Positions 423 to 30,726 of a stretch of DNA of 64,000 nt are shown in pieces. The DNA is taken from positions 1 to 64,000 of the IMG/VR virus record IMGVR_UViG_3300034107_000262; one strand, given 5' to 3'. The notes below the pieces were generated by a model. That model was not told where the DNA came from, did no database searches, and was given only the letters and a program-made list of their open reading frames with translations. A program made the position numbers and the translations under genes. This DNA comes from a virus. Position 1 is the stretch's first letter. The number at the start of each line of letters is the position of its first letter.

Positions 423-452
423 ATGATACCATGAATCAGCGCGCAGTGTCAA
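423..452 (-). promoter_or_regulatory. Early sigma70-type promoter (minus strand)
   Basis: On the minus strand TTGACA (452-447) and TATCAT (428-423) are separated by 18 bases. The -35 box abuts an inverted repeat, AAGACCCTA at 451-459 with TAGGGTCTT at 467-475, which is a likely operator. The core CCCTACAGAAAATAGG of this element recurs in the same orientation, relative to transcription, upstream of the plus-strand promoter at 768-797. The -10 box of both is followed by TCATTC. Confidence 0.75.
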
Positions 453-637: not shown

Positions 638-667
638 TTGACAGCGAGTACGATGCCATGGTATAAT
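638..667 (+). promoter_or_regulatory. Consensus sigma70-type promoter without downstream start codon
   Basis: A perfect TTGACA (638-643) and a perfect TATAAT (662-667) are separated by 18 bases. CATGGTAT is directly repeated at 618-625 and 657-664. Transcription would enter two perfect hairpins at 676-730 rather than a gene with a ribosome-binding site, which suggests a small RNA or a long leader for the gene at 851. Confidence 0.75.
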
Positions 668-673
668 TTTGGC

Positions 674-750
674 GCACCCGATAGTTAAAAACTATCGGGT
701 ACCTGGTGGTGATAGGCTTTGCCTATCACCCCGAAACCTGGCCGAATAAC
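674..750 (+). ncRNA. Candidate small structured RNA with two perfect hairpins
   Basis: The predicted transcript from the promoter at 638-667 contains two back-to-back perfect hairpins. The first has 11-bp arms (676-686 / 690-700, loop AAA) and the second 10-bp arms (708-717 / 721-730, loop TTT). There is no T-tract after either, so they do not look like ordinary intrinsic terminators, and no ATG with a ribosome-binding site lies between them and the next promoter at 768. A regulatory or decoy RNA fits. A structured 5' leader read into 851-1168 is the main alternative. The 3' end is not defined by the sequence. Confidence 0.4.
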
Positions 751-767
751 CCTACAGAAAATAGGTG

Positions 768-850
768 TTGCACACCAGGTGCAACATCCTTTATAATTCA
801 TTCATCGGGGCAGCAAAACGCAAACCCCCCACGGATCCGAAAGGTCTATC
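768..850 (+). promoter_or_regulatory. Early promoter and conserved 5' leader, copy 1
   Basis: TTGCAC (768-773) and TATAAT (792-797) have an 18-base spacer. A perfect inverted repeat GTTGCAC / GTGCAAC (767-773, 779-785) covers the -35 box and is a likely operator. The 53-base leader carries GGGGCAGCAAAACGCAAA followed by a C-run, then CGAAAGGTCTATC immediately before the ATG at 851. The same leader recurs at 1218-1269. AAAGG is the ribosome-binding site. Confidence 0.75.
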
Positions 851-1168
851 ATGGCAACATTCATCGCTAACGCATTTTCCCTCAACATGGTCGCTGAGGC
901 CGACCTGCCCCGGCTGCGCATGGTGGCCTGTGCCGAGCCTACGCGTACCCTTAACGGCCGATTTGTTTCGGCTGTTGGGCACGCTGACACGGCTGCCATC
1001 CTAGGCGTGCCATGCAACCGCATTAGCCTGACGCTGACCCAAAGCGATTGGCTGTACGTTGCCCAGTATAAGGGCCCACGGCTGCCAGAGGGCACGACAA
1101 CCCTGCCGTATGGGGCATCGTTTTCATGGGTCAGCATTTGGCTCGAGAGGGACGACACAACGGCATAA
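851..1168 (+). CDS. DUF1874 / AcrIII-1-like ring nuclease (candidate anti-CRISPR)
   Basis: This 105-residue protein carries the signature blocks of the DUF1874 (STIV-B116-like) family: NAFSLNM at residues 7-13, SAVGHADTA around G43-H44, LYVAQ at 68-72 and GPRLPEG at 75-81. In the characterised viral member AcrIII-1 (SIRV1 gp29), a small dimeric enzyme cleaves the cyclic tetra-adenylate messenger made by type III CRISPR complexes. The catalytic histidine and the Arg/Glu pair described there line up with H44, R77 and E80 here, by my recollection of that sequence. It would act in the cytoplasm to shut off type III accessory nucleases. The gene has its own strong early promoter and leader, which suits an anti-defence protein needed at once. 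Functional assignment is by family; cA4 cleavage is inferred. Confidence 0.85.
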   Translation: MATFIANAFSLNMVAEADLPRLRMVACAEPTRTLNGRFVSAVGHADTAAILGVPCNRISLTLTQSDWLYVAQYKGPRLPEGTTTLPYGASFSWVSIWLERDDTTA

Positions 1169-1187
1169 CCCTTCAGCCTGTAGGGGC

Positions 1188-1269
1188 TTGCACAGCCCCT
1201 ACAAAATCGCATATAATTCACCCATGGGGCAGCAAAACGCAAACCCCAAACGGACTCGAAAGGTCTATC
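1188..1269 (+). promoter_or_regulatory. Early promoter and conserved 5' leader, copy 2
   Basis: TTGCAC (1188-1193) and TATAAT (1212-1217) have an 18-base spacer. The -35 box sits in the loop of a perfect inverted repeat, GTAGGGGC (1180-1187) with GCCCCTAC (1195-1202). The 52-base leader repeats that of the gene at 851: GGGGCAGCAAAACGCAAACC, then CGAAAGGTCTATC next to the ATG at 1270. The hairpin may also act on readthrough from the gene at 851. Confidence 0.75.
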
Positions 1270-1491
1270 ATGTCAGCAGCCTACAAAATCAATGTCCTGC
1301 GTGCAGCCCGTGCCGAGCTTGCCGAGTGCCGCGTAGCCTTTGCTGCGGCCGAAGCTGCGGCCTACGATAGCTGCGGCCTAGTGCGCAGCGCTGCAGCCTT
1401 GCAAACCTTCAGCCGTGCCAGCGATGCGCTGGCCGACGCGATCTACACGTTCAAGGAAATGTTCGATTTTGCGTGTAGTCGCGACGAATAA
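1270..1491 (+). CDS. Small alanine-rich early protein, 73 aa
   Basis: The start at 1270 is fixed by the duplicated leader ending AAAGGTCTATC directly before the ATG. A longer open frame upstream runs through the promoter and is not used. The product begins MSAAYKINVLRAARAELAEC and is strongly helical, with about a third alanine, three cysteines and no membrane segment. The family is not recognised. It shares promoter and leader architecture with the AcrIII-1-like gene, so the two are probably expressed together at the start of infection. An anti-defence or host-takeover role is a guess from that context. The gene is GC-rich compared with the structural genes. Confidence 0.6.
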   Translation: MSAAYKINVLRAARAELAECRVAFAAAEAAAYDSCGLVRSAAALQTFSRASDALADAIYTFKEMFDFACSRDE

Positions 1492-2308: not shown

Positions 2309-3550
2309 ATGCAGAATTATAACCGCGCAACGAAGTATCTAGAAAAAGGTAACCCAGAGAAAGCGTTGCAATTTTACAAACGTCAGATTAAAGAATATGG
2401 ATTTAAGGAGTGCTACCTCAATATGGGTAATTCCTATCGTCTATTAGGAAATGATGCAGAAGCAATTAAGTGCTATTTAAAAGCTTCCGCTTTAGACACT
2501 CCTTTTAGCGATAATACATTTGGAGCGTATGACAATGCTTTAGGCAATTTAGGTTTGTTGGAGTATACATATGGTAATGATGATGCTGCAATTGCATATT
2601 ATACCGCAGCTTTAGAAAAGAATCCTTTGCACTTTGATTCTATTTGGAACTATGCCAATGCTTTACTGCGTAAGCATTGCTCTTTAGAAGAAGTGGATGT
2701 TGCGTCTGCTTGGAAGATGTATGAGTATAGGTTTAAGCGTTCTAGTGCTACGAAGATTGATCGCTCGATTACGACTTGGGATGGTATTAGTTCTGGCAAG
2801 TCGATAGTAGTCTTAGCTGAACAAGGAATGGGCGACAAGTTTATGTTTGGCAGGTATATTCATTGTTTACGTGATTATTTTGCTGAGATTTGGGTTCAGT
2901 GTCCTAAAGAAATGGAAACTATCTTTAGCGAGTATAATACTTGTCAAGAAGTACCAGATGCTGAGTGTAGCGTACCTATTTGTAGTTTGGCAGGTATTTT
3001 TGGGTCGAGTGACGATGCTTGGCTAGTTGGTATGTTTTCTGCCAGGAAATTTGCTGGTGATGGGTTAAAGATTGGTATTGAATGGGCTGGCTCGGATACT
3101 CACAGTAATAATAAGTATAGAAGTGTAACCAGTAATTATTTTCAGGATTTAGCTGAGTTTGGTGATCTGTATAGCATTAGACCCGAGGCTGAGGCTGTAC
3201 GTGGAGTTATAGCGTTGAATGCATGCTCATGGGCTGAATCTGCTGAGATAGTTAATGGACTGGATCTAATTATTAGCGTAGATACTTCTATCGTGCATTT
3301 AGCTGGATCGCTAGGTAAAGAATGCTGGATGTTGCAGCCTCTGAAAGAGACAGACTTTAGATGGGGTAGTAACTCGATGGGCGAAAAGAATATCTGGTAC
3401 GATTCAGTTAAGGTAATACGTAATCATGGTAACTGGTCGAACGTATTCGCTGAAGTACGCGCTAGATTAGAGTTACGTAGGTTAGAAGCTTGGAAAGATA
3501 AAATGCAAAGCATGATTGGGGATTTGAATGCTACTAGTATCCAGAGATGA
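2309..3550 (+). CDS. TPR protein with GT9/heptosyltransferase-like C-terminal domain
   Basis: 413 residues. Residues 1-135 hold at least three TPR-like helical pairs (for example LNMGNSYRLLGNDAEAIKCY and NLGLLEYTYGNDDAAIAYY). The remainder resembles the TPR-linked glycosyltransferase family common in aquatic phages: a glycine-rich loop AEQGMGDKFMFGRY near residue 169 and an acceptor/nucleotide-sugar type segment DLIISVDTSIVHLAGSLG near 317. It is related to the protein at 45778-47124. It likely transfers a sugar, but whether to phage structural proteins, phage DNA or host surface is unknown. It sits between the terminase genes and overlaps terL by 23 bases, an unusual place for such an enzyme. 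Confidence 0.7.
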   Translation: MQNYNRATKYLEKGNPEKALQFYKRQIKEYGFKECYLNMGNSYRLLGNDAEAIKCYLKASALDTPFSDNTFGAYDNALGNLGLLEYTYGNDDAAIAYYTAALEKNPLHFDSIWNYANALLRKHCSLEEVDVASAWKMYEYRFKRSSATKIDRSITTWDGISSGKSIVVLAEQGMGDKFMFGRYIHCLRDYFAEIWVQCPKEMETIFSEYNTCQEVPDAECSVPICSLAGIFGSSDDAWLVGMFSARKFAGDGLKIGIEWAGSDTHSNNKYRSVTSNYFQDLAEFGDLYSIRPEAEAVRGVIALNACSWAESAEIVNGLDLIISVDTSIVHLAGSLGKECWMLQPLKETDFRWGSNSMGEKNIWYDSVKVIRNHGNWSNVFAEVRARLELRRLEAWKDKMQSMIGDLNATSIQR

Positions 3551-5416: not shown

Positions 5417-5445
5417 TTGACAGTACCATGCCTAGATGCTATAAT
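5417..5445 (+). promoter_or_regulatory. Structural-region promoter before the HNH gene
   Basis: TTGACA (5417-5422), a 17-base spacer GTACCATGCCTAGATGC, and TATAAT (5440-5445). The spacer resembles those at 28055 and 30704 (TACTATGCCTACATGA), so these promoters form a family. Confidence 0.85.
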
Positions 5446-14546: not shown

Positions 14547-14575
14547 TTGACTTGTGCCACCCTCGATGGTATAAT
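14547..14575 (+). promoter_or_regulatory. Promoter for the tape-measure gene
   Basis: TTGACT (14547-14552), a 17-base spacer and TATAAT (14570-14575), 56 bases before the ATG at 14632. Confidence 0.8.
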
Positions 14576-28048: not shown

Positions 28049-28077
28049 TTGACTATACTATGCCTACATGATATAAT
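28049..28077 (+). promoter_or_regulatory. Structural-region promoter, family member
   Basis: TTGACT (28049-28054), a 17-base spacer ATACTATGCCTACATGA, and TATAAT (28072-28077). The spacer is almost identical to that at 30704-30720. Confidence 0.85.
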
Positions 28078-30697: not shown

Positions 30698-30726
30698 TTG
30701 ACTGTACTATGCCTACATGATATAAT
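30698..30726 (+). promoter_or_regulatory. Structural-region promoter, family member
   Basis: TTGACT (30698-30703), spacer GTACTATGCCTACATGA (17 bases), TATAAT (30721-30726). Nearly identical to the promoter at 28049. A 69-base leader precedes the ATG at 30796. Confidence 0.85.

Follow-up and report, generated by a model that had tools for sequence, protein, structure and literature searches.

What would a DUF1874 protein do for a T5-like phage, and when would it be made? An earlier note had read a short gene in the DNA analysed here as a viral ring nuclease of the AcrIII-1 type, driven by its own early promoter. This DNA, called the window below, comprises 64,000 of the 64,609 bases of IMG/VR record IMGVR_UViG_3300034107_000262. 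By analogy with characterised members of the family, we consider it probable (roughly 80%) that the product is a phage AcrIII-1-type ring nuclease, which would cleave cyclic tetra-adenylate (cA4) as a dimer and disarm type III CRISPR early in infection. The kind of enzyme is already known; what is added is one more AcrIII-1 family gene, from a T5-like phage, and the interest of this gene lies in its regulation and its neighbours.

A gene ahead of the packaging genes of a T5-like phage

The large terminase subunit encoded in the window is 47% identical to its counterparts in Vibrio phages from Demerecviridae, a T5-like family, and an SbcC/SbcD pair together with a match to T5 p143 is consistent with such a phage. 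Judged by these matches, the source of the window is a T5-like phage, present as a partial contig. The T5-like genomes used for comparison run to about 112-122 kb, so the record is probably a fragment. The genes that matter for the argument are the following.

851 to 1168, plus strand: DUF1874 / AcrIII-1-type ring nuclease gene, 105 aa, assigned from family matches, residues and fold
1270 to 1491, plus strand: gene 2, a 73-aa alanine-rich protein with a 58% identical homologue in the sister contig L114
1497 to 1530, no strand assigned: palindromic terminator-like element closing the small-gene array, which also ends the arrays of the sister contigs L002 and L114
1831 to 2307, plus strand: terminase small subunit, the first packaging gene (PHROG 3802, E 1e-33)

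The DUF1874 gene does lie upstream of the packaging genes, as the earlier note had it: these (terminase small subunit, terminase large subunit, portal) are oriented rightward from 1831. In T5 itself, oad, lpp and small genes come after the gene that precedes the large terminase gene, with the start of the right terminal repeat about 3 kb beyond. We considered whether the locus lies inside a T5-type first-step-transfer terminal repeat; this was not supported, and the window contig stops ahead of any repeat.

Other features of this region were seen in passing. A perfect 22-bp direct repeat, CCTGACAAAACTTTCGGTGCCA, stands at 1630-1651 and 1665-1686, upstream of the terminase small subunit gene, and the sequence around it at about 1600-1650 matches a similar pre-terminase spot in many T5-like relatives; the repeat region may be a regulatory or packaging site. 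Between the genes for the small and large terminase subunits lies a 413-aa TPR-like protein (2309-3550), and the same gap in L002 holds an extra methyltransferase-like gene of 236 aa (L002:395-1105), both functions being judged by eye. An Rfam search of the window gave no match.

The product belongs to the DUF1874 / AcrIII-1 family

The open reading frame has 105 codons, from an ATG at 851 to a stop at 1168, with a Shine-Dalgarno-like AAAGG at 840-844. Relative to its two closest relatives, both in sister phages, dN/dS is 0.12 and 0.18 and the changes fall mostly at third positions, which argues that the sense frame is under purifying selection. A 146-aa antisense frame at 802-1242 was rejected as a shadow frame, since the sense-frame changes are mostly third-position ones.

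Several searches agree on the family. PHROG 5063 matches the protein at E 1.7e-9, phmmer finds PDB entries 2j6b and 2x4i, and tblastn finds the DUF1874 gene of phage THSA-485A at E 1e-12 (40.6% identity over 91%). Scans of IMG/VR and GTDB returned more than 100 DUF1874 relatives. A profile built from 80 of them reaches four crystallised archaeal virus proteins at E values of 8e-19 to 1e-15, the best being SIRV1 ORF114 (PDB 2x4i, an AcrIII-1 protein) at 8e-19; the same profile matches 6scf at 2e-16 and the Crn2 domain of Csx1-Crn2 (8y7f) at 8e-5.

The Pfam search that the earlier note had proposed gave a divided result: the lone sequence scores 20.1 bits (E 7e-4), under the 26-bit cut-off, while 76 of the 80 aligned relatives singly match PF08960 (STIV_B116-like). 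Another CRISPR-associated ring nuclease, Csx16, is a separate kind; could the protein instead be nearer to that one than to DUF1874? The PADLOC Csx16 model does match residues 29-100 at E 2.5e-5, and Csx16 itself resembles the DUF1874 structure 2J6B (PMC12409355). However, Csx16 is absent from the Pfam matches of the 80 relatives, an NCBIfam search with the window protein gave no match, and the DUF1874 residues G43-H44, R77 and E80 are intact; we consider a closer kinship to Csx16 very improbable. On the family matches, the ORF at 851-1168 is a genuine member of the DUF1874 / AcrIII-1 family.

Within the family, a tree built on 82 rows groups the window protein with L007 and L008 without starred support, its 110 columns being insufficient for resolution. 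DUF1874 was absent from 17 further T5-like relatives found through the terminase small subunit, whose records, many of them fragments, were searched whole.

Conserved residues and fold

The residues that the earlier note had singled out are where it placed them. The catalytic-type histidine H44 is present in all 98 distinct relatives, and of the putative pocket pair R77 is kept in 97 and E80 in 94; because the search patterns held the GH motif and not R77 or E80, only the conservation of the latter two is free of selection bias. In the phmmer alignment, the H44 column falls on the histidine position at which 6scf carries the H47A substitution. We take R85 and E88 of SIRV1 to be the Arg and Glu of the RLxEG motif, and thus the equivalents of R77 and E80.

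A structure prediction, the other check that had been proposed, points the same way. The AlphaFold2 model of the monomer has a mean pLDDT of 93.5, and its best Foldseek match in the PDB is 6SCF, the AcrIII-1-cA4 complex (E 4.8e-6, probability 1.00, TM 0.63), followed by STIV B116, SIRV1 ORF114, AFV3-109 and Csx1-Crn2; all further matches are at noise level. According to this model, the monomer has the AcrIII-1 fold.

Promoters and leaders around the gene

The regulatory DNA was mapped by consensus matching, RNA folding and comparison with sister phages.

423 to 452, minus strand: divergent promoter, 11/12 consensus, with the same upstream motif, CCCTACAGAAAATAGG; it feeds the minus-strand genes at 243-416 and 3-230
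638 to 667, plus strand: promoter P1, TTGACA-18-TATAAT with TG before the -10, 12/12 consensus, some 185 nt ahead of the DUF1874 gene
676 to 733, plus strand: two strong stem-loops (676-700 and 704-733) from RNA folding, non-coding, between P1 and P2
764 to 788, no strand assigned: dyad GGTGTTGCAC-ACCAG-GTGCAACATC over the -35 of P2, the putative operator of the earlier note, examined by sister comparison
769 to 797, plus strand: promoter P2, gene-proximal, 10/12 consensus
807 to 850, plus strand: 5' leader GGGGCAGCAAAACGCAAACCCC...CGAAAGGTCTATC, common to gene 2 and sister phages
1179 to 1217, plus strand: gene 2 promoter, matching the P2 module, with dyad TGTAGGGGCT-TGCAC-AGCCCCTACA at 1179-1203 and -35/-10 at 1189-1217
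1226 to 1269, plus strand: gene 2 copy of the DUF1874 leader

P1 is kept in L114 as TTGACA-18-TAAAAT. In L002, P1 is directed away from the DUF1874 gene, and P2 is therefore the constant element. A side observation concerns the DNA after the full-consensus promoter, where a structured non-coding stretch with three hairpins (window 638-800; L114:170-306) is found. The segment 673-800 folds at -52.0 kcal/mol, and the stems are kept in L114 with altered sequence. A leader is one possible role for this structured stretch after P1, an early small RNA another.

The strong promoter that had been proposed for the gene is there, but such promoters are not special to it: other strong sigma70-type promoters precede structural genes at 5417, 14547, 28049, 30698 and 52212, and strength is thus no proof of early expression. 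Several of the structural-gene promoters have a different promoter-like sequence, of the TTGACTNTACTATGCCTACATGATATAAT type. We noted a recurrent TTGAC-n-TAC-ATGCCTA-ATG-TATAAT element with a conserved spacer at 28049-28077 and 30698-30726 (the clearest), 14547-14575 and 5417-5445, which is likely to be a second promoter class of this phage.

We argue for a separate timing of the DUF1874 gene because its promoter class differs from the TTGACTNTACTATGCCTACATGATATAAT type, and we infer early transcription from promoter class and position only. For SIRV2, a ring nuclease whose expression is too late or too weak to counter CRISPR has been reported: its AcrIII-1 gene is part of a middle operon, lacks the early regulatory motif and, driven by its own promoter, did not work natively as an anti-CRISPR (PMC11065993). 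That failure means that family membership alone does not prove anti-CRISPR action. For the window gene, we regard the same fate as unlikely, though a real contender: the gene has a promoter and leader of its own, set apart from the late structural genes, and several of the latter stand behind TTGACTNTACTATGCCTACATGATATAAT-type sequences.

The dyad over the -35 of P2 does exist, as the earlier note had seen. At most sister promoters there are dyads too, with other sequences but with the pairing kept, and there is none at the DUF1874 promoter of L002. This variation in the arms, together with the absence from that L002 promoter, argues against one conserved repressor site, and we set aside the P2 dyad as a conserved operator. 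Alternatively, it may fold as a stem-loop in the upstream transcript, at its 3' end.

An array of small genes with a common module

The DUF1874 gene had been described as the only plus-strand gene after its promoter. This did not hold: gene 2 is also on the plus strand and, besides its homologue in L114, has its own promoter and a copy of the leader. A self-match of 115 bp (78%, E 4e-20) joins the sequences ahead of the two genes, and the leaders alone agree at 89% over 53 nt. Searches of Pfam, PHROG and NCBIfam with gene 2 gave no match.

In sister phages, two to four monocistronic genes make up such an array. The row in L114 (terminase small subunit 97% identical) consists of DUF1874, gene 2 and two further genes, one of 62 aa and an acidic one of 90 aa, and each of the last three lies behind a homologous module, AATAACCC..CAGCCTGTAGGGGCTTG...TATAAT, that starts at the preceding stop codon. 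L002 and L112 (terminase small subunit 99% identical) carry DUF1874 (81%), a different gene 2 and an acidic gene 3, and there the entire array is inverted relative to the terminase. One regulatory sequence and promoter is thus common to DUF1874 and gene 2 of the window, to genes 2, 3 and 4 of L114 and to DUF1874 and gene 2 of L002. The exact 22-mer of the leader, used as bait in IMG/VR, was found only in the two sister contigs.

The L114 DUF1874 gene is without the GGGGCAGC leader and its gene 2 has it, which indicates that leaders and genes are exchanged. The 62-aa gene of L114 has 82% DNA identity to the gene directly upstream of DUF1874 in L014, a contig from a different phage. This sequence match suggests that phages, perhaps those infecting one host, swap genes of this kind. 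The last array genes were also seen to be very acidic, with 23 D/E to 3 K/R in 90 aa (L114:1322-1594) and 21 to 2 in 85 aa (L002:5701-5958); their proteins are reminiscent of DNA-mimic inhibitors.

More tentatively, and at less than even odds in our judgement, the array upstream of the terminase may be an exchangeable anti-defence island of T5-like phages, in which single small genes, each flanked by a promoter and dyad homologous to the others, come and go. The gene of AcrIII-1 type would be one member, and new counter-defence proteins would be encoded by those around it: gene 2, gene 3 of L114 (62 aa) and the acidic last genes of L114 and L002.

Comparison with characterised ring nucleases

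The closest characterised system is AcrIII-1 itself (SIRV1 gp29 / ORF114; 6SCF, 2X4I), which like the window protein is viral, about 105-115 aa long and of the same fold, and in which the GH-motif histidine and the R..E pair of RLxEG are kept. The two differ in that identity is about 20% and the window protein has 6 fewer residues in the segment leading from the post-H44 helix to the strand that follows. We ruled out this short form as a unique variant, as it is common to 39 of the 98 relatives. Regulation differs as well: the window gene has a promoter and leader in common with its neighbour, whereas the SIRV2 gene is without an early promoter (PMC11065993). The same work describes an early anti-defence motif in archaeal viruses; the window has instead a bacterial sigma70-type promoter in a T5-like phage, where early timing and an anti-defence function are putative.

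The Thermoanaerobacterium phage THSA-485A provides another tailed-phage homologue, but it is a different phage with a different gene neighbourhood, and the exact leader of the window is absent at its locus. The Crn2 domain of Marinitoga Csx1-Crn2 (8Y7F, 8Y7G) belongs to the same family by both profile and structural match. Marinitoga Crn2, however, is cellular, fused to Csx1 and encoded in a type III locus, whereas the window gene stands alone, on a phage contig beside terminase and portal genes. A further arrangement was seen in L104, an uncultured proteobacterium MAG, where a 573-aa ORF (L104:2200-3918) has an N-terminal DUF1874 domain (about residues 1-100) and then a Csx1-type CARF-HEPN region at 207-518 (PADLOC E 3e-26), the reverse of the domain order in Marinitoga Csx1-Crn2. 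The same bin also carries a Cas10 domain.

Proposed function

Extrapolating from characterised members, we propose that the DUF1874 protein would dimerise and bind cyclic tetra-adenylate, and that H44 would drive its cleavage to linear A2>P. Host type III CRISPR effectors of the Csx1/Csm6 type would thereby be turned off. The roles of the equivalent histidines fit this scheme: AcrIII-1 H47A binds cA4 at about 25 nM, while the wild type degrades it rapidly (PMC7213978), and in Csx1-Crn2 the equivalent H495 is essential (PMC7293037). The protein would be made early, as one of a monocistronic set of small genes with a common promoter module, and some members of the array may also act on the host.

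A ring nuclease of this kind might act mainly on a cyclic oligonucleotide other than the cA4 of type III systems, a CBASS-type messenger for example. Residues outside the core do differ from those of the archaeal enzymes, at the low identity given above. Yet the residues common to cA4-specific members are intact, and the characterised members AcrIII-1 and Crn2 are cA4 enzymes (PMC7293037, PMC12409355), so that we consider a different main target improbable.

The cA4 reading makes it plausible, as a prediction only, that the host of the window phage has type III CRISPR. Among bacterial bins with a DUF1874 gene, 4 of 10 have a Cas10 cyclase domain over the cut-off, a count without a proper base rate that fits the expected link. 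A protospacer search with 20 kb of the phage against 399 Pseudomonadota genomes gave no matches beyond those expected by chance.

Among the ring nucleases carried by phage genomes, AcrIII-1 is the one found most often (36 of 28,114; PMC12409355). A phage copy with a separate early-type promoter, as found here, would be a natural test of whether timing makes the enzyme an anti-CRISPR. The common leader, in turn, flags neighbouring genes without an assigned function as candidate counter-defence proteins.
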